Shown here one piece after another: positions 1,289 to 64,000 of a stretch of 64,000 bases of DNA (the stretch's first letter is position 1; each line of letters starts with the position of its first letter). The notes beneath the pieces were generated by a model. That model saw nothing but the letters and a program-made list of their open reading frames with translations. It ran no database searches and was not told where the DNA came from. The translations under genes and the position numbers were made by a program. The DNA is from Bacteroidaceae bacterium (GTDB taxonomy: Bacteria > Bacteroidota > Bacteroidia > Bacteroidales > Bacteroidaceae): contig JAFZKA010000100.1 of assembly GCA_017551925.1 (NCBI GenBank), positions 1-64,000 of the forward strand. Direction: 5' to 3'.

Positions 1289-1381
1289 TGCAATTGGGGA
1301 CAGTCCCCTTTTGCACGTTTTTTTATTTTTCAACTATCGCAATCCTTTAGAACGTGCAAAAGGGGACTGTCCCCAATTGCA
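1289..1381. repeat. Perfect 31-nt inverted repeat with a nested GGGGACAGTCCCC palindrome
   Basis: The left arm (1289-1319) and right arm (1351-1381) are exact reverse complements over 31 nt, separated by a 31-nt AT-rich spacer. Each arm contains the internal palindrome GGGGAC-A-GTCCCC, so the unit can form one long hairpin or two small ones. It fills the gap between the DUF2764 gene and atpA. GGGGACWGTCCCC cores are familiar as dispersed palindromes in many bacteria, some of them linked to REP-associated (IS200-like) transposases; that assignment is inference. In RNA it would give a very stable stem that could modulate A-subunit expression relative to upstream genes. Confidence 0.9.
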
Positions 1382-1391
1382 CCTTTTCAAC

Positions 1392-2243: not shown

Positions 2244-2257
2244 CTTGCCGATTAAGG

Positions 2258-5006: not shown

Positions 5007-5055
5007 AAGATTTTCACACATATATAAATAAAGGTAAAAATAAAAACGAAAAAAT

Positions 5056-6282: not shown

Positions 6283-6331
6283 GTTTTTCAAAACACTATA
6301 AACGCGATTTAATAATTAAAAAACAATTAAT

Positions 6332-7690: not shown

Positions 7691-7744
7691 AGATCTAAGT
7701 GATCCAAGCTGAATTATTAATAAATGAACTAAACATAACCAACT

Positions 7745-9169: not shown

Positions 9170-9228
9170 TGAACCCTTAAAAGTCAAATGCAACAAGGTT
9201 AAAATAAAATAAGGTGTAGAAAGCAGCA

Positions 9229-10335: not shown

Positions 10336-10370
10336 ATAGATATTTAACAATTAAAAAGGAGAGAATAATT

Positions 10371-11903: not shown

Positions 11904-11915
11904 TTTTCACATAGG

Positions 11916-11941
11916 CCTGAAGGGATTGAAACCCCTTCAGG
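11916..11941 (+). terminator. Intercistronic hairpin, possible attenuator or processing site
   Basis: A perfect 9-bp stem (CCTGAAGGG at 11916-11924 with its complement at 11933-11941) and an 8-nt loop begin 12 nt after the stop codon of fimbrillin 5. No U-run follows, so full intrinsic termination is unlikely; it may stabilise or trim the upstream message. Its position also argues that the next gene starts downstream of it. Confidence 0.55.
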
Positions 11942-11973
11942 TCACCAGGATTGGCAAAACAAACGCCTCATTT

Positions 11974-13272: not shown

Positions 13273-13338
13273 CCGATAAATACATAGTATTTAAATTTGG
13301 AGAATTAATTTATATTAACTAAATTTGCGATTATATTT

Positions 13339-30473: not shown

Positions 30474-30593
30474 ATCATTTGAAACGACAACGTGGCAAAA
30501 TATATAGGACATAGCAAAGCATCGCAAGCGGCAATGAAGAAACAAGCTGCAACACCGCAGAATGTCGGCGCAAAAATAGCGCAGACCGACTTC

Positions 30594-30623
30594 TTTGCGT
30601 ATATATGTATGTTCTTAACCTTG
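30594..30623 (+). promoter_or_regulatory. Candidate promoter of the Abi/HEPN gene
   Basis: TTTG (30594-30597) is followed after 18 nt by TAACCTTG (30616-30623), one mismatch from TAnnTTTG, about 73 bp before the preferred start codon at 30696. Independent transcription would be expected for an inserted gene. This is a weak-to-moderate call. Confidence 0.35.
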
Positions 30624-30695
30624 TTTAATGATACCATTTATCGTGAATGCAATCTTGAACCCAGAAAACATAGTCCATACCAATTAATTGAATAT

Positions 30696-35258: not shown

Positions 35259-38200
35259 ATGAAACATCTACGATATATGAACAACAGATATAGATTGACC
35301 GTTACTTTTTTATTAGCAACTCTACTGGCGGGGATTGACGCTTGGGCAGGAGTAACTATTAAAGGTTCTGTTTACGGAGGCGGAAACCTGGCCGATGTAG
35401 GTGGCAGAGTTGAGGTGAATATAAAAGGTGGCACCATAGAACAAGACGTCTATGGCGGCGGTGCTTTGGCTAATACCAATACTGGTAACTGGGATGAAGA
35501 TAATAGTCTTTTACTCGATTATGATTCCAGATTCTGTCAAGTTTCTGTTGCAGAAGGTTCATCTTTAGAAGGTTATTATACAAAACAGGGAGATACATAT
35601 ACTCTTTTAACAAGTGGTACAGCCGTATCCGGAACCGCATATTTCATGAGGAGAAACACCGCCGTAAACCTGACAGGAGGTAAAGTAATTGGTGATGTTT
35701 ATGGCGGCGGCCTTGGACGACAGGCATCAGGTGAAGGAGCAAATGCTGTTTCAGCAGTTGAGGCAAAAGTATATGGTGATGTGTTTGTAACAGTTAACGG
35801 CACACAATTTGATAACAGCAATGTATTTGGTGCAAACAACCTGAACGGAACGCCATTAGGTCATGTCAAGGTAATAGTAAATAAAACTTCCGAAATTGAA
35901 GGGCAGGCAATAGACTTGGCCGCAGTTTTTGGTGGCGGTAACCAAGCTGCCTATAATCCATTCAATTCAGGAGATTATGCTGAGGTTGAAATAGAAAAAA
36001 CCGGTAACCGTCTTATTGTAGGTAATGTATATGGTGGCGGCAATGAGGCCGGTATCACAGGTGTTCATGATGATGCAGGAACACTGGTTACAATAAAATC
36101 AGGTGATATAAAGAATGGAGTTTACGGTGGATGTAACTCTAGCGGTACAGTTAGTGGCAATGCTTCAGTTACTATAACTGGCGGTACCATAGGTTCCGGA
36201 ACTATTACTCCCGAAACTGGAGCATTTGCATATTCTGATAAAGCTAACGTTCATGGTGGTGGTTACGGACAGAACACGTATGTTAAGGGAAATGTGACCG
36301 TTAACATAGGTACTGATGCCACAACAGGTGATGCCACCATTTGGGGTGATGTGTATGGTGGTGGAGCCTTGGGTCATGTAAATGCCGTAACAGGAGAAAC
36401 TGAACCAACATTCCAGACTAGCAATACAACGACCGTTAACCTGTTTAAGGCCACCATGATTTATGGTGATGCATACGGCGGCGGTCTTGGTCAGAAAAAC
36501 GGCTTTAACAGTGCCCAATCAGATATTTCTGCATACGTTGGTGGTAATGTATTTGTCAACCAGTATAAGGTACCTTTCTACATAGATTACGATACTGATA
36601 ATAATGCGAAAGTAGTTAAGAGTGGCCGCATATTTGGTAGTAACAACCTGAACGGCTCACCTCAAGGTGACGTTACAGTAACCATTTACGGCACAGCAAG
36701 TGGCAATGTTACCAGAACGGCCGAAGATCCAAATAACACAGGTGTTCCCCAGAAAGGAGCAAACGTTACTCCTACATATGAACTGGCCGCAGTGTATGGC
36801 GGTGGTAATCTGGCTGACTATTCGGCAACCGGAAAGAAAACAAATGTCATTATTCAGACTTGCGATGTCAGTGTAAATGAGGTTTATGGTGGCGGTAATG
36901 CCGCAGCGGTTCCTGAAACTGACGTTCTCATTAACGGTGCCTATGAGATAGGTTACGTTTTTGGTGGCGGTAACGGTAAAGACAGATTCAGGAATGACAA
37001 CGGATGGCAGACCAATCCCGGTGCAAATGTAGGCGGTAACACCAACACACTCCTTAAAGGTGGTTATGTACATGAGGCCTACGGTGCAAGTAATGAAAAG
37101 GGTAATATAGCCGGTACTGTATCCATAAACGCCGGTACAGGTGGTGATTGCGCCCTTGAAGTAGGAAAGATGGTAGGTGCCGGTAAGAATGCAGACCTTA
37201 ATGGAGATGTAGTTCTTGTACTTGGTTGTATGCCGGAGGCAAAGATAGACCAGATTTTTGGCGGTGCCGATAATGCCAATGTAAATGGTAATGTAGAACT
37301 TACCATTACAAGCGGCAATTATGGCAGTGTATTTGGCGGTAACAACCTGGGTGGTATCATTAAAGGTTACATAAAACTGAATATTGAGGAAACTGGAGAG
37401 TGCGACGTTCCTATCACCATTGATAATCTGTATCTTGGTGGTAATCAGGCTGCATACTCCAAGTTTGGTTATTATGTAAAGACCTCTGAAGCAAATGGTC
37501 TTGGTGATCCGTCTGAAACACCGGTTCTGACTAACAACAAGCTTACTTTAGAACCAAGAACATCAGCAAATGACTCTCACAAACCAGTAAAGACCATTAC
37601 AGGAAACACTTGGACTGTCTATTCCGGAGAACAAGGTGATGAATATCCCACATACAATGACCCAATTCTGAATGTCATTTCATGCACCAGAATAGATAAC
37701 GTATTTGGAGGTGGACTTGGTACAGATGCTGTAATGTACGCCAATCCCACAGTCAACCTTAACATGATTCCAGGTAACCATGCCGATCAGATAGATCCTA
37801 CAGACCCCGATAAGACCAATCTTCTTGGTGTAATAGGCAATGTCTATGGTGGTGGTGAGCAGGCCGATGTTTATGGTAAAGCAACCATCAACATTGGTAC
37901 AGAATCAACAGTTACATTAAATTCAGTTCCCGATGACCCTGCCACAGCAGATATCCATGAGAATGTATTTAATGTCAAGGGTGCCAATGTCTCAAACGTA
38001 TATGGTGGCGGTAAGAACGCTAATATTAATGGAGATACCGAGGTTAACATAGGTACACTTGAATATTCCTCAGAGCACCACGGAGGTATAAGCATTGCCC
38101 ATGACGTATATGGTGGTGGTTATGGTGAAAGTACCAATGTTACAGGTACAGCCACTGTTAATCTCGGTACAACGGGAGTCGGTAACAGTATTGTCAATGA

Positions 38201-41200
38201 TGACATATACGGCGGCTCAGCATTTGGTACCGTTAATACCGCAGTGGTCAACCTCCACAAAGGTACTGTAAGTCGTGTATTTGGTGGCGGTAAGGGACAA
38301 AACGACCCGGATTTGACAGACCAGACTGATGAAAACATCACAGCCATTGTTACAACAAGTACAACTGTTAATCTTGACAATGCAACTGTTACAACAGCAA
38401 TCTATGGTGGAAGTAACCTTAACGGAACCATTGGAACTACTGCCACAGTTAACCTGTTAGGCGGATTAGTGGGTAACAGTGCATTTGATGCAAACTCCAA
38501 CAACTGGGCGACTGTTAACGCAGTATTCGGTGGCGGACTAGGTGAGAACACCCATACAAGTGGCCTTACCACTCTGAATGTCGGTTCAAAGACAACAACA
38601 CCGTCAGTTTCATACTCTGGAGCCACCCAGATATACGGTAACATATATGGTGGTTCTGAGAATGGTGAGGTTGGTGCTGTTGCTATCAACCTATACGGTG
38701 ACGACAATACGACTGAGACCATTCACGGTAACGTATATGGCGGTGGATATGAGACCGCTACGGGCAAGACTGCAGCCACAACTGTAAACGTAACTCTTGA
38801 CGGTGCCACATTTGACCTTACAAAGACCGGCATTGGACAGATATTCGGTAGCAACAACGTTCAGGGTTCACCTACAGGTCATGTTACCGTTCAGGTATTG
38901 AACACAGGTACTGACGGCACCAACGGTTATGGTGTAGAGAATGTATTTGGCGGCGGTAATGTTGCCGATTATAACCCCACATCCTCAACTGAAAAACTTG
39001 AGGTCATCATTAACGGCAGCACTGCAAAAGTTGGCAATGTATTCGGTGGCGGTAACCAGGCAGGAACAAAGAACAGCGCAGGCACAGATGTCAAGATGCA
39101 GGCCGGTACTGTTGTTACAGCAATTTACGGTGGTAACAACGATAGCGGTACTGTTGACGGCAGCACATCAGTTACTGTAACTGGCGGTACTGTTGGCCAA
39201 AATTGGCAGGACAACGAGCCCACAACCATGCCTCAAAAAATCTTCGGTGGAGGTTATGGTAAAGAGACTCTTGTAAAAGGCAGTGTCAACGTTAACATTG
39301 GAGAGAATAACAGTGGTACAGCTAATATTTGGGGTGATGTTTACGGTGGTTCTGCCGAAGGTAAAGTAAATGCAACCCAGAACGGAGCAAACTATTCAGC
39401 GACCAATGGTGCAACTACTAACGTCAATTTGATAAAGGGAACCATTCATGGTGACCTGTATGGCGGTGGTCTTGGTAAATTGGAAATTGCTGCTGATCCT
39501 GATAACGACATTGAGCATGAGGACCCGATTGCAGCCGATGTTTACAGCCCTGTAACAGTGACAGTAACTGGCGGTACAGCCCGTGATGTATTCGGTGCAA
39601 ACAACCTGTATGGTATGCCAAAGAGTTCTGTATCAGTACAGATAAACGGAACTGATGATGCCACAGCACCGTCCTATGCTATCCGTAACGTCTATGGCGG
39701 CGGTAACCTGGCAAACTACACCGGCAGTACAACAAGTCCTTCTGTATCAATGACAGCAGGATTTGTGAATAACGTGTTTGGCGGCGGTTATGGTTCAACG
39801 GCAGTTGTTACCGGTAATCCAAATGTCACCATATCTGGCGGAACTGTTAGGACCAACGTATTTGGCGGTGGTAATGAGGCAGGTGTTACCGGCACTCCTT
39901 CGGTCACTATTTCTGGAACAGGCCTTGTAAGCAATAACGTATTCGGTGGCGGTAATGAGGCTAATGTTACCGGTAGTACCAGCGTAAGCATTCAGGGCGG
40001 AACAGTAACAAAAGATGTATTTGGCGGCGGTAATCTGGCCGATGTCACCAACAACGTTAACGTTCAAGTTTCAGGCGGTCAGATGAATGATGTCTATGGT
40101 GGTGGCGCTCTGGCTCACACCAATACAGCCAACTGGAACACCGAAGGTATATCTGACGGAACCGGAACATGGGCAACAGGCAATAGTTCAAACACAAACA
40201 CTACTACCGTAAGCATTACAGGTGGTACCATACATGACGTATTTGGCGGTGCCTTGGGTAACACCACAACTGCTCCGTTCGTTTATGGTGATATAACCGT
40301 TAAACTGAATGAAGGTGTAGCCGAGGACAGCAAGGGTGCCATTCTCAACCGAATCTTTGGTGCCAACAACCTGAACGGTACTCCTAAGGGACATGTCAAA
40401 GTACATGTATTTGCTACTCAGCATCCTGACAAGGAGACTATAAATGACAAGACCACTCTTGGAGATAATCCTGCTGCCGATGCAGATGGCAGATATGATG
40501 TCCTTGCAGTCTATGGCGGTGGTAACCTGTCAGCATACGAACCAAAAGAAACAACAGAAAAGACAGAGGTAATAATTGAAGGTTGCGATATTACCAGCAT
40601 AAAGCAGGTTTATGGTGGTGGTAATGCCGCTTCTGTTCCGGCATCAGAGGTTACGGTAAACAGCGCATATGAGATTTATGAGGTGTTTGGCGGTGGTAAC
40701 GGCTATGATGACTACACGCTTATAGAAGGGAATAACACTGTCTGGTACAAGAATCCAGGTGCAAATGTTGGTTACAAGAACTATACACACTGGGTAAAGG
40801 ATGGAAGTAAGGGCGACGGAATCTCTCAACTTACAGCATACGAACCAGTTGACAACGATGGCGTTTCAACAAAAGAAAGCAGACTTATAAGTGCCTATGT
40901 TTACGGAACAGGTATAGCCAAGACAAATATAAACGGCGGTAGAATACATCATTCCTACGGCGGAAGTAACAGTAAGGGTAATATCCGCATAATTGCCCAA
41001 TCAATCTATAATGGTGACGGACAATATGGTTGCGATCTGATTGTTGATGAAACATACGGTGGTGGTAAGGACGCTACTATGGATGGCTCCATAGATTTGC
41101 AAATGAACTGTATGCAGAACAATGTTGACATGATTTTTGGCGGTTCGCAGAATGCCGATGTTAACTCTGACATTGTTCTCACCATAACCAACGGCCATTA

Positions 41201-44200: not shown

Positions 44201-47200
44201 GGGCTGTATAGTAAATGAGGTATTCGGCGCCAACAATGTAAACGGTACTCCTAAGGGTAACGTAACAGTGCATGTATATGGCACACAGCACTCCAAACTG
44301 CAAAGCATTTCGGCCAAGTACGATCCTCCGTATTACGATGCAACTCAGGGAATCGCCGAAGACTTAAAGGCATACCTGCAACGTCTCATTGATGCCGCAA
44401 AGCCTAATGGCACTCTCACTGCAGGCATAACAGAGTCTGTTATCACCAGTGCCCAGGGAACTCATGATGACTCATCTGCAAGTCAAGATGCATTGAACAA
44501 TGCCATCAGTTCCGTAAAACAGGAACTTGACAATCTGTATGATGTCAAGGCTGTGTATGGTGGCGGCAACAACGCTGCATATGTACCAACTACAGCATAT
44601 GATCCCACAAATGCACCAACAGGTTCAAAGAGCCAGGTTATTATAGAAGGAGAATGTGAATATACAAGCATCCAGTATGTATATGGTGGCGGTAATGCTG
44701 CACCTGTTCCTGAAACTAACGTATTGATTAAGGGTAACAAGATTATTGATTACGTGTTTGGTGGCGGTAACGGTACGGTAAGTGCTGCTAATGTAGGTTT
44801 TGACGGCAATGGTGCTGACCAAGGTACCGGTATTGCACTCACGCAATTGATGGGCGGTAACATACATTATGTATATGGTGCCAGCAACAACAACGGTAAT
44901 ATACGTGGTGAAGCAATAATTCAGAACCTCACCCCTGACGGTGATGGTTCTTGCGCACAATTAGTTGTAAACAAGATGTATGCTGCCGGTAAGAACGCTG
45001 ACATTGAAGGCGGTTCAGTGGTAGTATTCAGCAACTGTTCTGGCACAAAGATTGAAGAGTACTATGGAGGTGCTGAGAACGCGAATGTAGGTGGTGACGC
45101 CATCTTGACCATATCAGGTGGATCATTCGGTAAGGTCTTTGGAGGTAACAAGACAAGCGGTGCCATATTTGGACGCATTATTGTCAACATTGAAGAGACC
45201 GGCTGTGAGCCTATTGAAATTGACGAGTTATATGGTTGCGGAAATGAGGCTCCATACTCAATCTATGGTTTCTATCAGGAGGGAACATATCCCGGCTCTA
45301 GCAAGCCTTTCTATAGGCCAAGAACACAAGCACAATATGAGGCAATGACTCCTGAACAGAGAACAGCTGCAGGCATTTCAACTCCATATAACAATCCTGA
45401 AATCAATATTATCTCTGCCACAAGAATCGGTAAGGTATTTGGCGGTGGTTTAGGAGAAAATGCTATTGTTTATGGTAGTCCTATCGTTAACGTCAACCAG
45501 AATTACGGTAAGCATGCCGATGATTTAGGAAACAAACTACTTGCTGATATTGGCGATGTATTTGGTGGCGGTAATGAGGCTAGAGTCTATGGTAACCCGG
45601 TAGTGAACGTAGGTACTGAGACTTCGGTTTCAATGGTAACAGAACCCACATATCTTGGAACAAGTGGAACTGACTATACTTATAATGAGACAACTCAAAA
45701 ATACACGGTAGCGGTCCAGGGTGCAAAGATAACCGGTAGCATATATGGCGGCGGTAACCTGGCTGACATTAACGGTTATACAACCGTAAACATTGGAGCC
45801 AAGAAAGTTAATGATACATATTCCAATGTTACACTCCCGGCGGGCATTTCAATAGACGACAATGTATTTGGTGGTGGTCACGGTTCTGAATCAGACGCAG
45901 CAAAGGCTCTTGTAAGTGGGAACACAAACATTCATATTGGAAACGGTTCTATTCTAAAGAGCGTATATGGTGGTGGTGAATATGCACAGGTTGGAGGTAA
46001 CACTGACATTAATGTAAGCGGAGGTACTATCGGTACCAAAAATCTGGGCGGCGCCACATACGGAAACATTTATGGCGGTGGATTTGGTAGCACCAGCGGC
46101 GTTCTGTTCGGTCTTATCAAAGGTAACACCAAGGTCAGCATAAGCGGCTCTCCCACTATACTTCATAATGTTTATGGCGGTGGCGCATATGGCTCTGTAG
46201 GTACTTACACTTATGGTGAGAATTCTGTAATAACAGATCATACCGACAACACCGGAACAGCCGAGGTTTATATAACAGGAGGTACAATTGGTACAAACGG
46301 CATTGAGAACGGTATGATATTCGGTTCTTCACGCGGTGATGTTGCTGCCCCGGATGCTATTCATGACCAACTGGCATGGGTATATGACACAAAGGTTGTC
46401 ATTGGAACCGAGGGCTCAGGTACAGACTTTACCACTCCGTTGATTAAGGGCTCCGTTTATGGTAGTGGTGAGAACGGACATACCAAAAACAACGCTGAGG
46501 TTTATGTTCACAGCGGCACAATAGGTACTACCCCTGATGGTTCTACTGCCGATGAAACCCGTGGTAATGTTTATGGCGGTGGTTGCGGTACAGATACTTA
46601 TACCGGAACTGACAGCAAGGAGCACTACAACCCGTTGTCTGGTATCGTATTGAATGATGCCAAAGTTTATATTACCGGTGGTCACATTATGCGTGACGTT
46701 TATGGTGCCGGTGCTATGGGTTCTGTAGGTACAGCAACAGTTGGTGATAATCATGAAGCGATTAAGCATGAATATCAATTTGGAACTGATCCTACTTGGT
46801 ATGGCGCATATTATAACTTTGGTCTTAGTTGGCCGGTTGAGTTGGTTTATCCGACTGAGAATTCTCAAACATATACAGGTAAAACTACTGTTGAGATTAC
46901 CGGTGGTCGCATAGGTTATTTGAGAAATGATGGATCTGTCTATGGTGGCGACGTATTTGGAGCCGCCCGCGGTGAAGCCGGTGACAGATTTGAATTTGCT
47001 CCGTTTGCCAATGTAAGGGAAACTGAAGTTACAATTAACTATTCAGGTTCCACCTTAACACCTGCTAATGTTGCAGGAAATGCTGACGCCCAGTACATTT
47101 TAGGTTCAGTTTACGGTGGCGGTGCCAATGGACACGTATCAGAAGATACCAAGGTAACACTTACAGATGGTCTGATAGGTGGTAGTGTATTTGGTGGTGG

Positions 47201-50200
47201 CGATGGTACCGGCACCTATACGTCTGTATTATGGGAACCGGATCCAAATGATAAAGACAATGACAACGCACATATTGAAACTGCAGGTAAGGTTATTCAT
47301 AGTTGGACAGCCGGTAAGGTATATGGCAACACCAACGTTGTGATGAATGGCGGTTATGTAACGCTGAATGTATATGGTGGTGGAAAGTATGGCTCTGTAG
47401 GTATAGGTAACTACTCAGGTGGAACTGATGACTACTCGCCTATTGGCTATGGTGAATTGCCACCATCAGATAACCTTGATCTTTGGAATAATGATGATTT
47501 CACTAATACCGGTATTGCAACAGTAACTATCAATTCCGGTACTATCGGTACAGAAAGCGGAACATTTGATGACATGCCTACCGGTAACGTATTTGGCAGT
47601 AGCCGTGGTAAGGCAGCAAATGATGTTGGACGTCGTTCACCCCGCTACAAGTATGTTCCTGACTTTATGCTGGGTTATGTAAATGAGACCGCCGTAACCA
47701 TTGGTGATGGAACCAAAGAGCCTAGACTGTATGGTTCTGTATATGGCGGAGGCCAGGATGGTCATGTACGCCGCAGTACGACTGTCACTATCAACAGTGG
47801 TATAATTGGTGTCATTAATGGTGGTGAAGACCGTGGTAATGTATTCGGTGCCGGTTCAGGTCTTGGAAAGAATACAGAGCAGAATGATTTGGGTGGTCTA
47901 TTCAACAACTCATCCGGTTCAGTTACTTGTACTACTGACGTAATTGTTAATGGTGGCACCATTTACCAGAACGTATATGGTGGTGGTGCAATGGGTAGTG
48001 TAGGTCCTCCTAATACAGGTCCTTTTACCGGACTTGGTTTTGACGAGTTGGACAACACGAGCGACGATTATCCAAGACCAGAAGGACAATACAGCACCTT
48101 GACAACACATGCTTCAAGTTCATACACAAAGGTAGAGATTAAGGGAGGTGTAATTGGCTCTAATGACAACGCAGATGGCTATGGCGGTAACGTATATGGA
48201 GCAAGTCGTGGTACAAATGAAAGCAACATCCAGTTCACGAATCCTAAATATAAGTACGCTACTGACATCTGGTCAAAGGTTGATGTAAGCGCAGGTCAAA
48301 TCCATGGTAACGTATTTGGCGGCGGTGAGAACAGTATTGTTCTTAAGAGTACCGATGTCAAAATACGTGGCGGTGTAATAACAAAGTCGGTATTTGGCGG
48401 AGGTAAAGGTCAAGATGCCCTTATACAAGCCAACACAAAGGTTGACATGAGTGCAGGCACCGTAAACCAGAGTATTTACGGTGGCGGTATGTTGGGATCA
48501 GTAGGTACAATTGCCTCACAGGTTAAGCATGAACCGACAGCTAAATCAGATGGTGCACTATATAACTTTGCTCTCAGTTGGCCGTATGAATTCACCTATG
48601 CAAATACAATTATCGGAAACGGCGCATCACTCTATACCGGTGAGACTACTGTCAATGTAAGCGGTGGTACTGTTGGCGGTGATGTTTACGGAGCCGGTCA
48701 GGGTCAAGCCCACGGTGACGTAACACAAAAGACGGGTGATGACAGATGGAATTACCGTTATGATGAAGCTCTGATTGCAAATGTCAGGAAAACAAATGTC
48801 ACTGTTAATGCCGATATTGCCGGTTCAGTCTATGGCGGCGGTGAGGATGGTCACGTATATGAGGATACCAAGGTTACCATTGACGGCGGTACGATTAACG
48901 TTAGCGTCTATGGTGGCGGTAAGGGCTACGGTGATTACAAGGGATTACTACTTGAAGGTGAAGCCGTTGAGCAACCTGCTCATGACCATATTCCAAACTG
49001 GTTGGCCGGTAAGGTTTATGGCAACACAGAGGTTGTTATGAACGGCGGTCATGTATTAAAGAACATCTATGGTGGTGGAGACCTTGGTTCAATAGGTAAG
49101 GGAAGTTACTCAGGCGGTACTGATGATTACTCTGTAGTCGGATATGGAGAATTACCTCCTAAAAACAACGATGATACTGAAGCAACGTTATGGGATGAAA
49201 ACGGGCCTTTCATGACAAGTGGTATTGCCACTGTTTCCATCAATTCAGGTGAGATTGGAACCAAGTATGGTGTTGATGCTAATGGATTCCCGACCGGTAA
49301 TGTATTTGGTAGTAGCCGCGGTAAGGCAGCAAAAGATGTAGGTCAGAAATCACCTCGTTACAAATACGTTCCTGAATTCTTCTTGGGTTATGTAAACGAG
49401 ACATCTGTAACAATTGGTGATAACACCCATGATGCACCAGTTATTCATGGATCTGTTTATGGCGGTGGTCAGGATGGACACGTTCGCCGTAACACTGCTG
49501 TTACCATAAACAAGGGTGTTATTGGTGAGGAATATAACAGTAGTAGCAGTCTCACTTCGGCCCAATGGAAGGAGATAGGTAATGTGCTTGGTGCAGGTTC
49601 CGGTTTAGGACTTAACAGTGAAGACAACAAATACAACAATTCATCGGGTTCTGTAACCGGTACCACAACGGTTAACATCAATGGTGGTACCATATACCAG
49701 AACGTATATGGTGGAGGTGCACTGGCCATGGTAGGTCCTCCTAACACCGGAGCACCTAACGGACAAGGTTTTGATGAGTTCAACAATACTGCGACACCTT
49801 ACACGAGAACAGGCAGTTTTGCATCATATACAAATCATGGTTCAAAAACATACACTGAAGTCAATATCAATGGAGGTACCATTGGTCAGACTGATTTTGG
49901 CGGCAATGTTTATGGCGGTAGCCGTGGTTATGATGATACTGAGGTAAACAACATTTACGCAGGATCAGCCTACTCTACTGACATCTGGTCAACCGTAAAC
50001 ATCAATAACGGTACCATAAATGGTAGCGTATTTGGTGGTGGTGAAGCCGGTGATGTGAAAGACGGCGTTGTAGTCAACATAAAAGGCGGTGAGGTCAAGA
50101 AGGATGTTTATGGAGGCGGTGCATTAGCCAACACGAATACAAGCAACTGGGTACTCAATAGAGCCACTAATGAATGGGGCTGGGCAAACAGCACTCAAAA

Positions 50201-62200: not shown

Positions 62201-64000
62201 AATCGGTAATAATCTTGAGTCTATCTTGGTTGAGCATACCAAGGGCGGTAACGTCTTTGGCGGCAGTATGGGACGTATTGAATTGCAGGACGGCAGTGTC
62301 AACCCGCTTTGGCCGGAACTTGCACAGGTCAAGACTACCGAAATTGATATTACCGGCGGTACCATCAAGAGCAATGTCTATGGTGGAGGTGAGTATGGTA
62401 CTGTACGTGAAGATGCAAAAGTAACCATTGATGGAGGTGTTGTTGAACGTGATGTATTTGGCGGCGGCTATGGTAGTGATGATTTTGAGACAGAGACTAC
62501 CATTGAAGTAGCCGGCTATGACAACACTCATTTCACCTTTACGCCTATGCAATGGGCCGGAATGGTTGGTGGAGACACATATGTCGATATCAAGAGCGGT
62601 CAGGTCAAGAAGAATATTTATGGCGGCGGTGAAATGGCGTCAGTAGGTATCATGGACTATACCCAGTCTGTCAAGCATGATGACATTGTGGCTGGAGGCA
62701 CATCTGATGAAAAGATATATGGTTTTGGACTTAGCTGGCCATACGAGTTCAAGTACAGAACCTATAACTCAACAGCAGGTGACCAGAACACAATTGGCGG
62801 TACAACCCATGTGAACATTACCGGTGGACGTATCGGTATTACCGGTAAGGACTTTATGGGTCCATACAATGCTCAAGGCAAACCTATTGACAAGGAAACT
62901 GGTGAGGTAATCGATGAAAGCACTGAAGAAGGTAAGGCTAAGATTAAAAAAGCCAGAATAGACAATGGTGATGTATTTGGCGGTGGTAAGGGTCTTGTTG
63001 GTGACCGTTACGACATGGCATACAGTGCCAACGTAAAGGCCACTCAGGTTGAGATCAATATTACCAGTGATGCTACTCCAGAAAACTACAAGGAGCAGAA
63101 CCACTCATGCCTGCCAGGTTCAGTATATGGCGGTGGTGAAAACGGTCACGTAATTGAGAACACAAGTGTGACTCTCAAGAACGGACTTATTGGCCATGCC
63201 ATCTATGGTGGCGGTAAGGGTAAGGATACATATTCTGTAAGACTCCTTAAGATAGGCAGAACCGCATCAAATAATCCTAATGACTATTATGATGCTGACA
63301 TCTACAGTATTACGGCTGGAAAGGTTTATGGAAACACTGAAATCAAGATGGAAGGCGGTCATGTACTGCGTAACATCTACGGTGGCGGTAATATGGCATC
63401 GGTAGGTAAGGGTAACTATTCAGGCGGTAGTGATGATTACTCCACAAGCGGATACGGCGAATTGCCTCCAAGAACCGGTGATAATGCCAACGAACTTTGG
63501 AGTAACACTGACTTTATGAACAGCGGCAAGACCAAAGTGACCATTACAGGCGGTACAATTGGTTTGCTTGGTGAAGAAAAGGACGGACTGCCCTACGGTA
63601 ATGTATTTGGAGGTTGCCGTGGTGAGGCCGCTCCTAACATCTTTGAGTCACCGCGCTACCATTACAGTCCGCAGTTCTACTCCGGTTATGTCAATGAGAC
63701 CGAAGTTGTTATTGGAACCGCATCCGCAACCGGACCCACCATCTATGGTTCAGTATATGGAGGTGGTCAGGACGGACACGTTCGCAGAGACACCAAGGTT
63801 GAAATTAACAGCGGTCAAATAGGTGTAGCCTATAATGAAGATAACCGTAAGGCTGTTAAGACGTTGAGTACAAATCCCACCCAAGAACAGATTGCAGACC
63901 ATTCAGACATTGACAATCTGCAGTGGCTGCATCGCGGTAACGTATATGGCGCAGGTTCAGGTATCGGTCAGTATGAATATGACTTTAACTACAATAAGCG
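35259..64000 (+). CDS. Giant secreted YGGG beta-solenoid-like protein, at least 9,580 residues, open at window edge
   Basis: The ATG at 35259 lies 8 nt after AGGAGA and opens a frame that remains uninterrupted to the last base (28,742 nt, 9,580 full codons, near 1 MDa so far). The start has a signal peptide (core LTVTFLLATLLAGIDAWA) followed at once by a solenoid unit, VTIKGSVYGGGNLADVGGRV. Almost the entire length consists of units of about 25-28 residues, [NS][VI][YF]GGGN.A.V.G...V.I.GG.[VI], carrying longer loops and a few helical inserts. Landmark segments translated near 36.6, 40.4, 44.2, 50.4, 52.2, 58.7, 61.2 and 63.9 kb all lie in the same frame, so I find no frameshift. The units fall into recurring superblocks listed separately. 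By analogy with the 4,123-residue protein a sorting domain may lie beyond the window. It is likely an extracellular fibre or adhesin; no catalytic motif is seen. Confidence 0.88.
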   Translation, partial: MKHLRYMNNRYRLTVTFLLATLLAGIDAWAGVTIKGSVYGGGNLADVGGRVEVNIKGGTIEQDVYGGGALANTNTGNWDEDNSLLLDYDSRFCQVSVAEGSSLEGYYTKQGDTYTLLTSGTAVSGTAYFMRRNTAVNLTGGKVIGDVYGGGLGRQASGEGANAVSAVEAKVYGDVFVTVNGTQFDNSNVFGANNLNGTPLGHVKVIVNKTSEIEGQAIDLAAVFGGGNQAAYNPFNSGDYAEVEIEKTGNRLIVGNVYGGGNEAGITGVHDDAGTLVTIKSGDIKNGVYGGCNSSGTVSGNASVTITGGTIGSGTITPETGAFAYSDKANVHGGGYGQNTYVKGNVTVNIGTDATTGDATIWGDVYGGGALGHVNAVTGETEPTFQTSNTTTVNLFKATMIYGDAYGGGLGQKNGFNSAQSDISAYVGGNVFVNQYKVPFYIDYDTDNNAKVVKSGRIFGSNNLNGSPQGDVTVTIYGTASGNVTRTAEDPNNTGVPQKGANVTPTYELAAVYGGGNLADYSATGKKTNVIIQTCDVSVNEVYGGGNAAAVPETDVLINGAYEIGYVFGGGNGKDRFRNDNGWQTNPGANVGGNTNTLLKGGYVHEAYGASNEKGNIAGTVSINAGTGGDCALEVGKMVGAGKNADLNGDVVLVLGCMPEAKIDQIFGGADNANVNGNVELTITSGNYGSVFGGNNLGGIIKGYIKLNIEETGECDVPITIDNLYLGGNQAAYSKFGYYVKTSEANGLGDPSETPVLTNNKLTLEPRTSANDSHKPVKTITGNTWTVYSGEQGDEYPTYNDPILNVISCTRIDNVFGGGLGTDAVMYANPTVNLNMIPGNHADQIDPTDPDKTNLLGVIGNVYGGGEQADVYGKATINIGTESTVTLNSVPDDPATADIHENVFNVKGANVSNVYGGGKNANINGDTEVNIGTLEYSSEHHGGISIAHDVYGGGYGESTNVTGTATVNLGTTGVGNSIVNDDIYGGSAFGTVNTAVVNLHKGTVSRVFGGGKGQNDPDLTDQTDENITAIVTTSTTVNLDNATVTTAIYGGSNLNGTIGTTATVNLLGGLVGNSAFDANSNNWATVNAVFGGGLGENTHTSGLTTLNVGSKTTTPSVSYSGATQIYGNIYGGSENGEVGAVAINLYGDDNTTETIHGNVYGGGYETATGKTAATTVNVTLDGATFDLTKTGIGQIFGSNNVQGSPTGHVTVQVLNTGTDGTNGYGVENVFGGGNVADYNPTSSTEKLEVIINGSTAKVGNVFGGGNQAGTKNSAGTDVKMQAGTVVTAIYGGNNDSGTVDGSTSVTVTGGTVGQNWQDNEPTTMPQKIFGGGYGKETLVKGSVNVNIGENNSGTANIWGDVYGGSAEGKVNATQNGANYSATNGATTNVNLIKGTIHGDLYGGGLGKLEIAADPDNDIEHEDPIAADVYSPVTVTVTGGTARDVFGANNLYGMPKSSVSVQINGTDDATAPSYAIRNVYGGGNLANYTGSTTSPSVSMTAGFVNNVFGGGYGSTAVVTGNPNVTISGGTVRTNVFGGGNEAGVTGTPSVTISGTGLVSNNVFGGGNEANVTGSTSVSIQGGTVTKDVFGGGNLADVTNNVNVQVSGGQMNDVYGGGALAHTNTANWNTEGISDGTGTWATGNSSNTNTTTVSITGGTIHDVFGGALGNTTTAPFVYGDITVKLNEGVAEDSKGAILNRIFGANNLNGTPKGHVKVHVFATQHPDKETINDKTTLGDNPAADADGRYDVLAVYGGGNLSAYEPKETTEKTEVIIEGCDITSIKQVYGGGNAASVPASEVTVNSAYEIYEVFGGGNGYDDYTLIEGNNTVWYKNPGANVGYKNYTHWVKDGSKGDGISQLTAYEPVDNDGVSTKESRLISAYVYGTGIAKTNINGGRIHHSYGGSNSKGNIRIIAQSIYNGDGQYGCDLIVDETYGGGKDATMDGSIDLQMNCMQNNVDMIFGGSQNADVNSDIVLTITNGHYNKVFGGNNTGGNVYGTITVNIEETDPCNDIEIGSLYGGGYLAPYSVYGYDNNDPINRAAYKANLISQNPDLSGDEIEALIQAKEQYPVVNVISATSIDNVFGGGYGAGADVYGNPIVNINMVPGLHADKIDRNGDNTADNNPHHLGAIGNVFGGGEEAHVFGNATINIGTLSQVTLASVNTNQTRNVEGAYITGNVYGGGKDADINGTADINIGTVAYTGTDYEGVTIRGDVYGGGMGTNTHITGHTTVNLGTEGTGNSSVLGDIYGGSAFGTIETAQVNLYKGTVRNVFGGGKGQDADANADPVKLEYTAHVTTSTEVTLYGATVTNALYGGSNIRGEIGTSSTADDAASTTITLLGGSIGSNVSTSTDWLADNAELQTVFGGGYGASTHTYGLTTLNVGSKTVTGEEPSVTTTYNGNTVIYGNVYGGSKMGRVSAANVNLYRGTIHGNVFGGGYQTHNSILNTAATNVNVTLDGVTFDLAKNGGYVFGANNKAGSPSGHIKVEVLNTGTISGNYDVANVFGGGNISDYSPASSNEYLEVLINGSNTTRIGQVFGGGNNAGTLNGVGTNVTLNSGNVYTAIYGGNNASGTIDGNTSVTLMGGTVGADWGNSVPTDANMPRTVFGGGLGESTLVKGNVEVNIGAKSDTDVLSGSTVVWGDVYGGSAKGNVNAYQENNQLNATDNTTTRVNLYGGDVKGDIYGGGLGDANISANVYGPVTVAVEAGTARNVYGANNIQGAPQSTVNVSVSGTAQGTEQAPSINSVYGGGNQAAYAGTPTVNVSGDSYIANVYGGGNQAGVGASDVTINTTNNNGNTVSSIINKVFGGGNQAGTTGNATVRMTSGNITGAVYGGSNAAGNIGGNATVTVTGGTLGNAATATENNVLFGGGYGENTSVSGNVTVFVGSMTLTQNSTEFTGNATLNGSVYGGGEQGSVNTENGNNTTTVNLFRGTINGSAYGGGLGTNSVAALVYGDVFVNLNGITVTDNNGTNKHLVPTSSTPGCIVNEVFGANNVNGTPKGNVTVHVYGTQHSKLQSISAKYDPPYYDATQGIAEDLKAYLQRLIDAAKPNGTLTAGITESVITSAQGTHDDSSASQDALNNAISSVKQELDNLYDVKAVYGGGNNAAYVPTTAYDPTNAPTGSKSQVIIEGECEYTSIQYVYGGGNAAPVPETNVLIKGNKIIDYVFGGGNGTVSAANVGFDGNGADQGTGIALTQLMGGNIHYVYGASNNNGNIRGEAIIQNLTPDGDGSCAQLVVNKMYAAGKNADIEGGSVVVFSNCSGTKIEEYYGGAENANVGGDAILTISGGSFGKVFGGNKTSGAIFGRIIVNIEETGCEPIEIDELYGCGNEAPYSIYGFYQEGTYPGSSKPFYRPRTQAQYEAMTPEQRTAAGISTPYNNPEINIISATRIGKVFGGGLGENAIVYGSPIVNVNQNYGKHADDLGNKLLADIGDVFGGGNEARVYGNPVVNVGTETSVSMVTEPTYLGTSGTDYTYNETTQKYTVAVQGAKITGSIYGGGNLADINGYTTVNIGAKKVNDTYSNVTLPAGISIDDNVFGGGHGSESDAAKALVSGNTNIHIGNGSILKSVYGGGEYAQVGGNTDINVSGGTIGTKNLGGATYGNIYGGGFGSTSGVLFGLIKGNTKVSISGSPTILHNVYGGGAYGSVGTYTYGENSVITDHTDNTGTAEVYITGGTIGTNGIENGMIFGSSRGDVAAPDAIHDQLAWVYDTKVVIGTEGSGTDFTTPLIKGSVYGSGENGHTKNNAEVYVHSGTIGTTPDGSTADETRGNVYGGGCGTDTYTGTDSKEHYNPLSGIVLNDAKVYITGGHIMRDVYGAGAMGSVGTATVGDNHEAIKHEYQFGTDPTWYGAYYNFGLSWPVELVYPTENSQTYTGKTTVEITGGRIGYLRNDGSVYGGDVFGAARGEAGDRFEFAPFANVRETEVTINYSGSTLTPANVAGNADAQYILGSVYGGGANGHVSEDTKVTLTDGLIGGSVFGGGDGTGTYTSVLWEPDPNDKDNDNAHIETAGKVIHSWTAGKVYGNTNVVMNGGYVTLNVYGGGKYGSVGIGNYSGGTDDYSPIGYGELPPSDNLDLWNNDDFTNTGIATVTINSGTIGTESGTFDDMPTGNVFGSSRGKAANDVGRRSPRYKYVPDFMLGYVNETAVTIGDGTKEPRLYGSVYGGGQDGHVRRSTTVTINSGIIGVINGGEDRGNVFGAGSGLGKNTEQNDLGGLFNNSSGSVTCTTDVIVNGGTIYQNVYGGGAMGSVGPPNTGPFTGLGFDELDNTSDDYPRPEGQYSTLTTHASSSYTKVEIKGGVIGSNDNADGYGGNVYGASRGTNESNIQFTNPKYKYATDIWSKVDVSAGQIHGNVFGGGENSIVLKSTDVKIRGGVITKSVFGGGKGQDALIQANTKVDMSAGTVNQSIYGGGMLGSVGTIASQVKHEPTAKSDGALYNFALSWPYEFTYANTIIGNGASLYTGETTVNVSGGTVGGDVYGAGQGQAHGDVTQKTGDDRWNYRYDEALIANVRKTNVTVNADIAGSVYGGGEDGHVYEDTKVTIDGGTINVSVYGGGKGYGDYKGLLLEGEAVEQPAHDHIPNWLAGKVYGNTEVVMNGGHVLKNIYGGGDLGSIGKGSYSGGTDDYSVVGYGELPPKNNDDTEATLWDENGPFMTSGIATVSINSGEIGTKYGVDANGFPTGNVFGSSRGKAAKDVGQKSPRYKYVPEFFLGYVNETSVTIGDNTHDAPVIHGSVYGGGQDGHVRRNTAVTINKGVIGEEYNSSSSLTSAQWKEIGNVLGAGSGLGLNSEDNKYNNSSGSVTGTTTVNINGGTIYQNVYGGGALAMVGPPNTGAPNGQGFDEFNNTATPYTRTGSFASYTNHGSKTYTEVNINGGTIGQTDFGGNVYGGSRGYDDTEVNNIYAGSAYSTDIWSTVNINNGTINGSVFGGGEAGDVKDGVVVNIKGGEVKKDVYGGGALANTNTSNWVLNRATNEWGWANSTQKTALYTTTVNLTGGKIDGNAYGGGLGRMAATGVEAVAATVWGDVTVELNGSTEQGATNNCSVDKIFGANNLQGTPKGDVTVAVYKTQNADPDKNNKPAGLTSINDREDVSKYGIYDVSAVFGGGNRADYEPASYQAPNVIIDGCDDISINEVYGGGNAAAVPATNVEVKGAYLINYVFGGGCGTDNTTRGANVGYKTFPAYNYTGDKTPYLYEGGSGNTLVNLRGGYIINAFGASNTNGDISGSANLNISEIDNGCTLQIGSIYGAGKNADVDKDVNTQIDCPSSSIQNVYGGAEEANINGNVTLTITGGTFERVFGGNKTRGNISGNITVNIEETDAGCRPIRITDALYGGCYNAPYSGTNNNGLITVNVKSFTEINNIYGGSFGESATVNGNTVVNINEAKGYWANKTYDNVAIPDKIGGITGNVYGGGEKANVIGNTTVNIGTLTQVPLVSKPVLDANNQPTFDAQDNPVYTMADVKGVDISGDVYGGGNLANVDGNTTLNIGFENLTAGTSIGGSVYGGGKGQTSHVTGNVDVNIGNENGGYATITHDVYGGSAYGSTNTANWNTTTNTWVTGLTQENKKTTHVKLLGGTIGGSAFGGGLGQQEVKAGDVVTTPAIVSMVYGDVLVDLNGITTSTISRTSKGCIVDQVFGANNYNGTPLGDVTVHVYGTQHADAGKATISDKYDVPYYDVDKAVNEGYKVYLQRLIDVVKTGNTVLDGIDASVVTTAQTLLTSLENVDEANLTDDNKTAITTAANNINAQVSRLYDVHAVYGGGNEAAYIPEGDNRSTHVIIEGCDYSSIQYVYGGGNAAPVPATNVLIKGNKIIDYVFGGGNGTVTGADVGYYVLNNTQQQQGSGIATTQLMSGTIHYVYGGSNTRGNIRETALIETVDNTHEDGCCQTLTVNKMFAAGKDADIEGSTATIFCNNETKVDEYYGGAENANVGGNAELTISGGSFGKVFGGNKTSGAIFGRIILNIEETDCKPIIIDELYGCGNQAPYSIYGYYLDGESNLHPRESATDGNTPVRLRRQNEDGDGTYVAYTGTFTTYANPVVNIISCTSIGKVFGGGLGEYAIVYGSPTVNLNMTPGKYATSIDRDNNGSPDENAHRLGTIGNVYGGGNAADVIGNSTVNIGTVTTVEMNSLPKVGAVDENNDPIYEYEIDEQGNYVYEQDGITHKLVQKMIYQTKDVEGAYINGNVYGGGLEATVSGNTRVNIGINNNNNSVTYTGEGFENIVITGSVYGAGQGLATDITSAQVRGNSTVRIGSGWIKESVYGGGEKASVGNFTYDANNNITACAANTGLSTVYIIGGRVGPSILTMPMFTGHVFGAGKGMTGAEAIYPKLNYVQNTDVTITGTAFIKGSVYGGSENGHVRGDTYVKIQGGQIGSGYNTSNNTDIDRPYGINADGTPNDEWSSDPTDAVNPRFLYETNSWTYGQAANAADKYAPYDPYAGTNGYDSKGGRLVGDDGHTFYGNVFGGGSGYFPYAAGTWSRTAGAVEGNTHVEISGGHILTNVYGGNELTNVGGTCTVEMSGGTLGVPRTIEQIIAHPVTCYLFGAGKGDERVLFNKETNVKDVVVNITGGWIYGSVFGGGEDGHVLRDVSLTISEPEGKTTKIGTWGTSYVDGNVFGGGRGFGADAYTAGNVAGSVTMNISGGTMLGSIYGGGRLGSVGYGLYDETTNNAPTPGYGEIRDDGKLDDGTDGSTYFTNGRGHVTIAISGGTIGNDLEYKYPTDADKSGNLRFTSYDSSNRLTHTKGGNVFAGGMGRRLQLDGVTPISGIDWKKLGNVKSTKLTITGGTIKSNVYGGGELGAVTAFADGSTIQGGSTEINIQGGTIGTLIQASGENGEPAYYYGSVYGGGMGEIYTENSSKVLGGGNVTGNTKVSMSGANTAVMASIYGGGELAQVYGSTDVAVSGGTIGVSGFGGIEYGNIYGGGKGSTDIVNAGLVKTDTKVTVSGTSTRIWHNVYGGGAYGSVGTYTYNANDEITGHTDNTGTASVYITGGTIGRNGQENGMIFGSSRGDVGAPNSIHDRLAWVYDTKVIIGDTTNVAATTPSIMGSVFGGGENGHNFHDAYVRVHNGTIGIYEENSALNATRGNVYGGGCGTDKYESDPVNHVWAYNPQAGIVMNNATVRITGGNIKRNVYGAGAMGSVGTISNLSTIDQYKHESVKENDGAFYDFGLSWPVELVYPTTTGENAHTYTGKTTVEIIGGTIGVDGNDNGYVYGAARGEAGDRYEMAKYANVRTSQVTIGNVNSTSTPDIKGSVFGGSANGHVYEDTYVTINKGSIAKSVYGGGNGEGTYHGEQWIPVVDPNNPNNLSQHDVVNDAELHSFTAGKVYGNTHVTMYGGQVKQNVYGGGNYGSVGKGNYAGGIDDYSESGYGELPPTTGSNANKLWSNQDFITSGKATVNIYSGIIGTTNEDDLDESGLPYGSVFGSSRGIAALDVGRRSPRYKYVPDFFLGYVNETEVTIGDNTHTLPSIYGSVYGGGKDGHVRRGTNVTINNAAIGIEGSTNLDRGNVFGAGSGIGTYTDNGLKCNTSSGSVTTTTNVEINGGIIRRNVYGGGALASVGPPFAGNMDSNGKPYDELKETTDSHKSNSYTRVNIKGGNISGSVYGASRGPSDALISNVFTENNVNVYDDTKFATVIYADVNVSGNANITGSVYGGGEKGIVKHATLVNIGTTGNSGTYTGTIGQDVYGGGQEALVGGNVTVNVNSGTVTQDVYGGGALANTNTNTHETKEVPIYGVVNTSSAYNTSDEIDGHVQTIVNVTGGKMRDVYGGALGRLASGTGNDAVEAVYAQVYGNVTVNLNEGVSTSSNGAVVNRIFGANNLNGTPGGHVKVHVFATQNAHKATIAKADKYEHRIQRQDESLTDYLTYLVSSSVNAQTHQYEVGINSSLMGSALTLIASESTDLALWDNMIKAVIEERGKLYDVQAVYGGGNLSEYVPTSNDENTEVIIDGCDLTSIRQVYGGGNAAAVPATNIRVNGSYEIEEVFGGGNGKDDYTINGVTYKNPGANVGYHNYTEYDNEGNVVIKSDAQTKENRESNYGYGSGVATTGIYGGYIHAVYGGSNQNGNIRKSVVSTYEDMVDDCSVRIDETYGGGKNATMDAEIVLNLDCVTNMPDIYGGAKNADVNADITLNITNGTFNRVFGGNNTGGNVYGSITVNVEEMGCQPIRIGSLYGGGYLASYSIYGYYQDENQKWQPRTKEMYDVLTDEQKTELGLTEPYKDPLINIISATEIGNIYGGGYKAEVAGSPYVNVNMQEGKILARFVPVDYSGNKDNAGNRILDIGTIGNIYGGGYEATVYGDTHVEIGTGQKVDSWNNDGTPAYAATGGKTAKITGNVYGGGNLGDITGNTYVDISAIKDADNYVAVAQPADNVTIGGSVFGGGKGSTDSFFCNKAMIGTDGAGANNNSYTDGNTRVIIGNGTIENDVFGGGEIGRVEMNTDVIIGIGDGDNAKTSAPFIKGNVFAAGKGVETHGYSALVRGNPSVTVQGDAKVEGSVYGGGQIASVARYNVPKTEAEVAAAIAAGYDAHLGMPYALANNTSGNCIVTIKGNAEIGPDDMKMYHEGVAAINDAPDIAGHVFGAGRGITPGNYSYADIANMPKRMVLYDSNTHTDAGQGVSWEYADDDHKNVWEYFTNDDDYLGFVRTLALSSKTIVTIEGNPFIKGSVYGGSENGIVQYDTKVYIKGGQIGNGDGVNRRYTDAEWASESLAECASWPYGKATTAAEKFAPYDPYAREYDSKGGSIRGDDGHTFFGNVFGGGSGYYPYAPGKWNSEAGAVYGNTYVSVTGGHILTSLYGGNEMTNVGKPDNNNTGQCTVEFGGTATLGVPRTLEQIGAHPVTCYLFGAGRGDQRVLFNTWTNINNAIVNVTGGRIFGSVFGGGEDGHVLEDVKLTISGNPKIGTTGTSYVDGNVFGGGRGFSGEAVTAGTIGGNVDIDIQGGEMLGSVYGGGRLASVGLYFTDPNNALYGQLKEDDNNGTYGHVKIKISGGTIGNNLESILVEHTKGGNVFGGSMGRIELQDGSVNPLWPELAQVKTTEIDITGGTIKSNVYGGGEYGTVREDAKVTIDGGVVERDVFGGGYGSDDFETETTIEVAGYDNTHFTFTPMQWAGMVGGDTYVDIKSGQVKKNIYGGGEMASVGIMDYTQSVKHDDIVAGGTSDEKIYGFGLSWPYEFKYRTYNSTAGDQNTIGGTTHVNITGGRIGITGKDFMGPYNAQGKPIDKETGEVIDESTEEGKAKIKKARIDNGDVFGGGKGLVGDRYDMAYSANVKATQVEINITSDATPENYKEQNHSCLPGSVYGGGENGHVIENTSVTLKNGLIGHAIYGGGKGKDTYSVRLLKIGRTASNNPNDYYDADIYSITAGKVYGNTEIKMEGGHVLRNIYGGGNMASVGKGNYSGGSDDYSTSGYGELPPRTGDNANELWSNTDFMNSGKTKVTITGGTIGLLGEEKDGLPYGNVFGGCRGEAAPNIFESPRYHYSPQFYSGYVNETEVVIGTASATGPTIYGSVYGGGQDGHVRRDTKVEINSGQIGVAYNEDNRKAVKTLSTNPTQEQIADHSDIDNLQWLHRGNVYGAGSGIGQYEYDFNYNK
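36633..37912 (+). repeat. Superblock A, copy 1
   Basis: This copy runs from FGSNNLNGSPQGDV to a NIGTES unit. The ordered landmarks are AVYGGGN, VII.(G/T)CD, EVYGGGNAA.VP, VFGGGNG, NPGANVG, YGASN..GNI, GAGKNAD, FGGADNANV, VFGGNN, NIEETG.C, INVIS-CT-type and VFGGGLG. Confidence 0.8.
39771..40088 (+). repeat. Purest four-unit stretch of the solenoid repeat
   Basis: Four consecutive coils of 28, 27, 26 and 25 residues begin NVFGGGYGS, NVFGGGNEAG, NVFGGGNEAN and DVFGGGNLAD, each followed by V.I.GG-type strands and with no long loops. This defines the basic unit (75-84 nt). Confidence 0.88.
40356..41730 (+). repeat. Superblock A, copy 2
   Basis: This copy starts FGANNLNGTPKGHVKVHVFA and repeats the same landmark order as copy 1 through NIEETDPC, LYGGGYLAPYSVYGY, VISATSID and a closing NIGTLSQV. 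It starts 3,723 nt after copy 1. Together with the shared flanking units it forms a near-tandem duplication with a period of about 3.8 kb. Confidence 0.8.
44223..45632 (+). repeat. Superblock A, copy 3 (with helical insert)
   Basis: This copy starts FGANNVNGTPKGNVTVHVYG, then carries an insert of about 80 residues without GGG motifs (LKAYLQRLIDAAK). It resumes with AVYGGGNNAAYVP, GNKIIDYVFGGGNG, YGASNNNGNI, AAGKNADIEG, NIEETGC and YGCGNEAPYSIYGFY. Confidence 0.8.
47313..48014 (+). repeat. Superblock B, copy 1
   Basis: The ordered landmarks are GKVYGNT, GGYVTLNVYGGGKYGSVG, YSGGTDDYS, GYGELPP, GNVFGSSRGKAA, RSPRYKYVPDF, GYVNET, SVYGGGQDGHVRR, VFGAGSGLG and SVGPPNTG. Confidence 0.78.
49008..49743 (+). 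repeat. Superblock B, copy 2
   Basis: The landmark order is the same as in copy 1 (GKVYGNTEV, GDLGSIGKGSYSGGTDDYS, GYGELPP, KSPRYKYVPEFFLGYVNET, GGGQDGHVRR, VGPPNTG). It starts 1,695 nt after copy 1. Confidence 0.78.
50394..51548 (+). repeat. Superblock A, copy 4 (compact)
   Basis: This copy starts FGANNLQGTPKGDVTVAVYK. It keeps the order AVFGGGN, VIIDGCD, EVYGGGNAAAVP, VFGGGCGTDN, RGANVGY, FGASNTNGDI, GAGKNADVD, VYGGAEEANI, VFGGNKTRG and NIEETDAGC, and closes with NIGTLTQV. Confidence 0.8.
52155..53625 (+). repeat. Superblock A, copy 5 (with helical insert)
   Basis: This copy starts FGANNYNGTPLGDVTVHVYG and carries a helical insert related to that of copy 3 (YKVYLQRLIDVVK). It continues with HAVYGGGNEAAYIP, GNKIIDYVFGGGNG, AAGKDADIEG, NIEETDC and YGCGNQAPYSIYGYY. 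It is closest to copy 3, whose start lies 7,932 nt upstream. Confidence 0.8.
54285..55227 (+). repeat. Superblock C, copy 1
   Basis: The ordered landmarks are KGSVYGGSENGHV, KYAPYDPYAG, DSKGGRLVGDDGHTFYGNVF, GGGSGYFPYA, GGHILTNVYGGNELTNVG, GVPRTIEQI, HPVTCYLFGAGKGDERVLFN, SVFGGGEDGHVL, SYVDGNVFGGGRGF and GGRLGSVG. Confidence 0.82.
57210..57924 (+). repeat. Superblock B, copy 3
   Basis: The landmarks are GKVYGNTHV, YGGGNYGSVGKGNYAGGIDD, GYGELPP, RSPRYKYVPDFFLGYVNET, GGGKDGHVRR, VFGAGSGIG and SVGPP. It starts 8,202 nt after copy 2. Confidence 0.78.
58683..60170 (+). repeat. Superblock A, copy 6 (with a different helical insert)
   Basis: This copy starts FGANNLNGTPGGHVKVHVFA and carries an insert with YEHRIQRQDESLTDYLTYLV. 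It then follows the order AVYGGGNLSEYVP, VIIDGCD, QVYGGGNAAAVP, VFGGGNGKDDY, NPGANVGY, YGGSNQNGNI, ETYGGGKNATMD, LDC, VFGGNNTGG, NVEEMGC and LYGGGYLASYSIYGYY. Confidence 0.8.
61221..62106 (+). repeat. Superblock C, copy 2
   Basis: The landmarks and order match copy 1 (KGSVYGGSENGIV, KFAPYDPYA, DSKGGSIRGDDGHTFFGNVF, GGGSGYYPYAPG, GVPRTLEQI, HPVTCYLFGAGRGDQRVLFN, SYVDGNVFGGGRGF, GGRLASVG). It starts 6,936 nt after copy 1. Confidence 0.82.
63318..64000 (+). repeat. Superblock B, copy 4 (cut by the window edge)
   Basis: The landmarks are GKVYGNTEI, GGGNMASVGKGNYSGGSDDY, GYGELPPR, ESPRYHYSPQFYSGYVNET, GGGQDGHVRRDT and VYGAGSGIG, then the end of the window. It starts 6,108 nt after copy 3. Confidence 0.75.

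Follow-up and report, generated by a model that had tools for sequence, protein, structure and literature searches.

A reading frame that opens at position 35259 of the window (the whole 64,000-base stretch analysed, bases 1-64000 of the 72,055-base contig C104) encodes a protein that, in ruminant Bacteroidaceae, probably serves as a beta-helical adhesin or as the fibre of a surface structure linked to fimbriae. The protein, called the giant below, represents a family that is new and unnamed, though its fold is of a known kind. This reading rests on computational support for the open frame, its repeats, its predicted fold and selection on it, for conservation of the locus, for fusion and fission of its parts, and for the presence of a type IX secretion system (T9SS). 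The source assembly (G000) is a draft genome of 2.6 Mb in 127 contigs, and the features of the locus are listed in Table 1.

Table 1. Features of the locus, in window positions unless stated otherwise.
Feature	Position	Strand	Remarks
AraC-type HTH protein, divergent	2934..3440	-	possible cluster regulator (role inferred)
Eight-ORF type V (Mfa/FimA-like) fimbrial cluster	3768..14622	+	Pfam
4,123-aa partner protein	14636..27007	+	signal peptide, N-terminal YGGG units, T9SS type A-like tail
Head-module paralogue 2	27069..30473	+	55% identical to head at 31582-35226
Head-module protein	31582..35226	+	first ~800 aa GLUG/M26_N-like; YGGG units at the end
Giant, predicted beta-helix protein gene	35259..64000 in window; 35259-70847 in contig	+	11,862 aa
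Signal peptide of the giant, MKHLRYMNNRYRLTVTFLLATLLAGIDAWA	35259..35348	+	read by eye
Segment with regular ~26-aa unit, modelled as right-handed beta-helix	39579..40628	+	
Best-conserved internal superblock	46059..47858	+	66% aa identical to copy at 55989-57779
Long-unit segment with recurrent SVYGGGQDGHVRR motif, modelled as beta-rich solenoid	62499..63938	+	

The first-pass annotation had described a single frame of at least 9,580 codons that begins with a signal peptide and stays open to the last base of the window. The first 9,580 codons (frame 35259..63998), starting with ATG, were all open. Extension along the contig, a check proposed with that claim, made the frame longer still: it was closed by a TAA at 70845-70847, after 11,862 codons with zero internal stops. 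The in-frame stop that would have spoken against the claim did not appear in the assembled frame. The computed mass was 1,231,175 Da (1.23 MDa) and the pI 4.67. Proteins larger than 1 MDa are rare in bacteria.

The signal peptide was visible by eye. The N-terminus, MKHLRYMNNRYRLTVTFLLATLLAGIDAWA followed by GV, has the form of a Sec/SPI-like signal peptide with an AWA cleavage site, and the first ~91 residues are free of Cys (none before residue ~92). At the other end, the gene is followed on the minus strand by a small gene resembling a ParE-type toxin, beyond which the contig ends in sequence that looks like 5S and 23S rRNA (both read by eye).

The protein had been described as made almost wholly of YGGG units. 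The literal tetrapeptide occurred just 100 times, and the description held for a degenerate form of it. The core [YF]G[GAS][GACSN] occurred about 250 times, against a mean of 17 and a maximum of 30 in shuffled sequence, and no stretch between cores exceeded 142 aa. The median spacing of the cores was 40 aa, with 25-26 and 33-34 aa as common spacings. The shortest common repeat unit was 25-26 aa long, and the simplest unit resembled TVRTNVFGGGNEAGVTGTPSVTISGG.

A second motif, SVYGGGQDGHVRR, with its variants ([QED][DN]GHV, often QDGHVRR), was found at 11 places between residues 4165 and 11551 and includes positions that are invariant across 54 aligned segments. The SVYGGGQDGHVRR/QDGHVRR motifs may be binding sites (for a ligand or metal) or structural sites. 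At one [QED][DN]GHV site, the D, G, H and R were invariant across relatives.

On a larger scale, blocks of a few hundred residues recurred within the giant at 55-70% aa identity, displaced by about 590, 1,260, 2,040, 2,650 and 3,310 residues. The last ~3,400 residues were collinear with the giants of G025 and G028, at offsets of about 5,700 and 5,430, respectively, and much of the region from residue 800 to 8,400 matched other parts of the giant itself at least as well as it matched relatives. The extra length appears best explained by internal block duplication, a reading based on best matches and not on a tree.

Models of two segments of the giant, of 480 aa and 350 aa (830 of its 11,862 aa), were made with AF2 from alignments of 54 and 34 sequences, respectively. 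Both were predicted with high confidence as beta-solenoids (62499..63938: pLDDT 86.7, pTM 0.89; 39579..40628: pLDDT 88.5, pTM 0.90). This agreed with the solenoid proposed in the first-pass annotation, which had suggested the modelling of coils as a check.

Foldseek searches of both models against the PDB gave no match at E<=0.001. Structural realignment was run on the Foldseek candidates, and the high-scoring rows were nearly all right-handed beta-helices. The 350-aa model aligned with EtpA (Z 12.6, rmsd 4.0, 249/350 residues), the Pam1 tailspike (Z 12.4) and polygalacturonase (Z 12.3), and the 480-aa model with the TPS domain of HxuA (Z 10.0). Model and structural alignment place the modelled segments in the right-handed parallel beta-helix fold. 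Since no Foldseek E-value was significant, we interpreted the likeness as a probable sharing of arrangement, not as homology; the empty Foldseek result was given no weight as a sign of a new fold. A beta-helix rises 0.48 nm per coil. If each motif makes one coil, we estimate that about 250 coils would form a rod of roughly 120 nm.

As the first-pass annotation had supposed, the repeat had no named family. When the giant was scanned with Pfam and NCBIfam, nothing beyond chance matches came up, with no family covering the repeat, and a profile search of PDB sequences with the repeat gave no match. No paper on a YGGG-type repeat was found in the open-access literature searched. The family, its size, its modular build of head and rod and its linkage to fimbriae are undescribed in the literature and databases searched.

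Matches were found in 6 of 37 genomes at the genus level (source genome included), in 28 of 301 genomes and 8 of 30 genera of the family-level sample, in 3 of 344 genomes of the order-level sample, and in 1 of 395 of the phylum-level sample, which was the source genome itself. The few matches in the last two samples suggested that the protein family hardly extends beyond this bacterial family. The source genome's frame was the longest seen, the other frames in the genus reaching 7,957 codons. Within the source genome there were no paralogues elsewhere, every match lying on C104. The 61 named loci were from Bacteroidales, nearly all of them metagenome-assembled genomes, and carried for the most part the label Bacteroidaceae, Prevotellaceae or Prevotella; many were titled with a ruminant source (rumen, reticulum, abomasum or omasum). 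A phage or viral origin was rejected, as no viral contig in IMG/VR matched the giant.

The linkage to fimbriae was seen in the gene order. The giant is preceded by twelve genes in its own direction, spaced 4-166 bp apart. In the fimbrial cluster, one ORF matched DUF5119, four matched Mfa_like_1 and three had no Pfam match. The tandem fimbrillin-like lipoproteins make this a type V fimbrial locus, an assignment that applies to the locus and not to the giant itself. Genes for V-type ATPase subunits (2-2848, minus strand) lie upstream and divergent; ATPase-like genes also adjoin the cluster in G027 (by eye).

The 4,123-aa partner was conserved in all relatives examined. TIGR04183 was its sole NCBIfam match (E 4.8e-4; 20.1 bits against a cut-off of 23). 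It was also the top match in the homologues of 5 of 5 relatives scanned, above the cut-off in G170. We took the partner to carry a T9SS type A tail, with the score just below the cut-off in this genome.

The head proteins matched the N-terminal region of IgA1 protease M26 (PF05342) and GLUG repeats weakly, over about 90 residues. No HExxH motif was found in the giants, the heads or the partner, and identity as an M26 metalloprotease was rejected, the match being limited to the N-terminal region. The head (~800 aa) was a separate gene in G000, G025, G028 and G057, and in G003, G027, G180, G170 and G255 it formed one gene with the giant; the fusion in G255 is 2,453 aa long. These fusions speak clearly for a joint function of head and rod. 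Among the separate giants, those of G000, G025 and G028 had similar signal peptides, which argued that the split between head and giant is not a sequencing error. Between the two head genes lies an Abi_2/HEPN-type gene (30492-31415, plus strand); an ORF in the equivalent neighbourhood of G003 (C41:49381-50487) resembled it in N-terminal sequence (by eye).

The layout of the cluster was largely kept across several genera. The order of fimbrillin-like genes, ~4,000-aa T9SS-tailed protein, head and giant was found in G025, G027, G003, G057, G170 and G255, and parts of it in G028, G180 and G128. Pfam matches of the relatives' fimbrial genes were similar in G025, included DUF5119 just under the cut-off in G057, and FimA in G170; the proteins in the fimbrial position upstream in G255 had no Pfam match.

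The proposed mechanism is weakest where the giant would have to cross the outer membrane. The protein had been called secreted, and the signal peptide, from which we infer export by Sec, fits this in part. The search for a sorting domain, proposed for the extended contig, gave a negative answer: no T9SS type A or type B CTD model matched the last 200 aa, the Por_Secre_tail models TIGR04183 and PF18962 included. The end of the giant was conserved within the genus and differed between genera. At contig positions 70700-70844, a low-complexity Pro/Ala/Gln linker came before a terminal motif that is conserved in the genus and resembles NAATEAPQNRT...Q; this could be an anchor or sorting signal. The giant at G057:C4:43090-61893 ended in ~90 aa of non-YGGG sequence that looked BACON-like by eye; an NCBIfam scan did not confirm this.

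The source genome encodes the T9SS protein SprA (2676 bits), and six other proteins in it had Por_Secre_tail above the cut-off. The presence of SprA would suit a different reading, to which we give a minor share of the probability, that the giant is a SprB-type T9SS substrate, a motile or static adhesin exported through SprA by means of a diverged C-terminal signal of its own. SprB of Flavobacterium johnsoniae, another Bacteroidota protein, is a highly repetitive T9SS surface adhesin of 669 kDa (PMC9143113). The giant is likewise repetitive and comes from a Bacteroidota host with a T9SS, and a tail resembling N.A.EAP..R....Q is kept within the genus. On the other hand, the giant (1,231 kDa) has about twice the mass of SprB and sits in a fimbrial locus. 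SprB bears a type B CTD and depends on SprF, whereas the giant had no recognised CTD, and no SprF/PorP-like gene was found among the Pfam matches of the cluster. The ends of the giants also vary between genera, some stopping directly after a YGGG unit, which argues against this reading.

The structural matches to EtpA and HxuA, among the closest found, suggested two-partner secretion, in which the giant would be a TpsA/FHA-like exoprotein that leaves by a TpsB Omp85 pore with its N-terminus leading and is then held at the surface or released. The TpsA exoproteins (EtpA, HxuA and the FHA class) are secreted right-handed beta-helix adhesins, and the giant has its N-terminal signal directly before the beta-helix and lacks a C-terminal sorting domain, as this route would allow. 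TpsA proteins, however, depend on a TPS domain at the N-terminus and on a TpsB pore, and neither was found. The mature N-terminus had no TPS-type motif by eye, and there was no detectable sequence homology to TpsA. A search of the source genome for TpsB (ShlB family) gave only one sub-threshold match of 19.5 bits, on another contig, and no Omp85-like gene was among the Pfam matches of the cluster. We consider this route improbable.

A signal peptide combined with no known outer-membrane export signal would also fit a scaffold kept in the periplasm or within the envelope, not displayed at the surface. A rod of ~250 coils, which would exceed 100 nm, fits the periplasm poorly unless it lies along the cell. 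The conserved linkage to surface fimbriae and to a T9SS-tailed protein with YGGG units of the same kind also points away from such a location, which we regard as doubtful.

The possibility that assembly or repeats created the frame, or that it is a pseudogene in decay, is largely refuted and retains a very small chance: the genome is a draft and the frame of one relative is broken, but the array is free of long exact repeats, its stops are missing, its dN/dS is low, and intact giants occur in eight other genomes, as detailed next.

The longest exact DNA repeat inside the giant was 30-34 bp, with none of at least 35 bp, so that collapse or false expansion by assembly is unlikely. Related frames of about 2,450-7,957 codons were found in independently assembled genomes, and with the short exact repeats these argue strongly against an assembly artefact. 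Intact giant frames were present in G025, G027, G028, G057, G180, G170, G128 and the single-contig genome G255. In G003 (C41, near 69070) the frame was broken and resumed in other frames, by decay or assembly error.

Purifying selection, which the first-pass annotation had argued from the missing stops, was supported. In a simulation, 5% of neutral divergence brought in about 57 stops, against 0 observed, and the openness of the frame far exceeded chance. The proposed comparison of superblock copies was made on nine pairs of internal blocks and gave dN/dS of about 0.19-0.25; against three other species the ratio was 0.13-0.23 (both NG86). These ratios are approximate, dS being 1-2 and near saturation. 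The differences piled up at third codon positions.

The reading we prefer, that of a fimbria-linked beta-helical adhesin or fibre, would then work as follows. One continuous polypeptide of 11,862 residues would be exported by Sec and fold as a very long right-handed parallel beta-helix, with each YGGG-type motif making about one coil and roughly 250 coils forming a rod or bundle on the order of 0.1 micrometre. The array would have grown through internal block duplication, with selection keeping it intact. The upstream genes would supply type V (Mfa-like) pilins, and the two separately encoded GLUG/M26_N heads would form a distal or capping part. The 4,123-aa T9SS type A protein carries coils at its N-terminus that resemble those of the giant. 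Having both the shared coils and a T9SS tail, it would be a natural candidate for carrier or anchor, and the giant would perhaps pass the outer membrane together with it. At the surface, the giant would assemble with the fimbriae and bind plant fibre, host or microbial surfaces. We infer outer-membrane passage, surface display, export route, fimbrial assembly and ligand binding; adhesion is the likeliest function, judged from the gene neighbours.

A known counterpart for the proposed partner is Mfa5 of P. gingivalis, a tip accessory protein of Mfa1 (type V) fimbriae and a T9SS substrate (PMC5954841). The 4,123-aa protein would resemble it as a T9SS-exported accessory of type V fimbriae, but Mfa5 is much smaller and has a von Willebrand A domain and no YGGG beta-helix. 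We know of no megadalton protein associated with Mfa5.

Clustered genes for very large proteins are also known from Apilactobacillus kunkeei, in which Giant1-5 are extracellular proteins of 3,000-8,000 aa, and Giant1-4 carry a beta-solenoid domain (PMC12863079). These proteins belong to a Gram-positive organism, their beta-solenoid is only N-terminal and followed by alpha-helical repeats, and they are not known to have a fimbrial linkage like that of the present locus.

More speculatively, and with rather low probability, the giant could be the shaft of a new class of surface appendage. This would be a single-polypeptide beta-helical fibre of more than 100 nm, mounted on or beside type V pili, which crosses the outer membrane without a sorting signal of its own by coil-to-coil pairing with the YGGG-sharing, T9SS-exported partner.

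The way in which giant proteins evolve can be followed directly here, in the fusion and fission of head and rod and in the lengthening by duplication, from about 2,450 residues to 11,862. Rumen Bacteroidaceae are central to fibre digestion in ruminants, and the giant belongs to an unnamed, widespread family in them. If displayed at the surface, it would be a candidate means of holding plant particles, host tissue or other cells.
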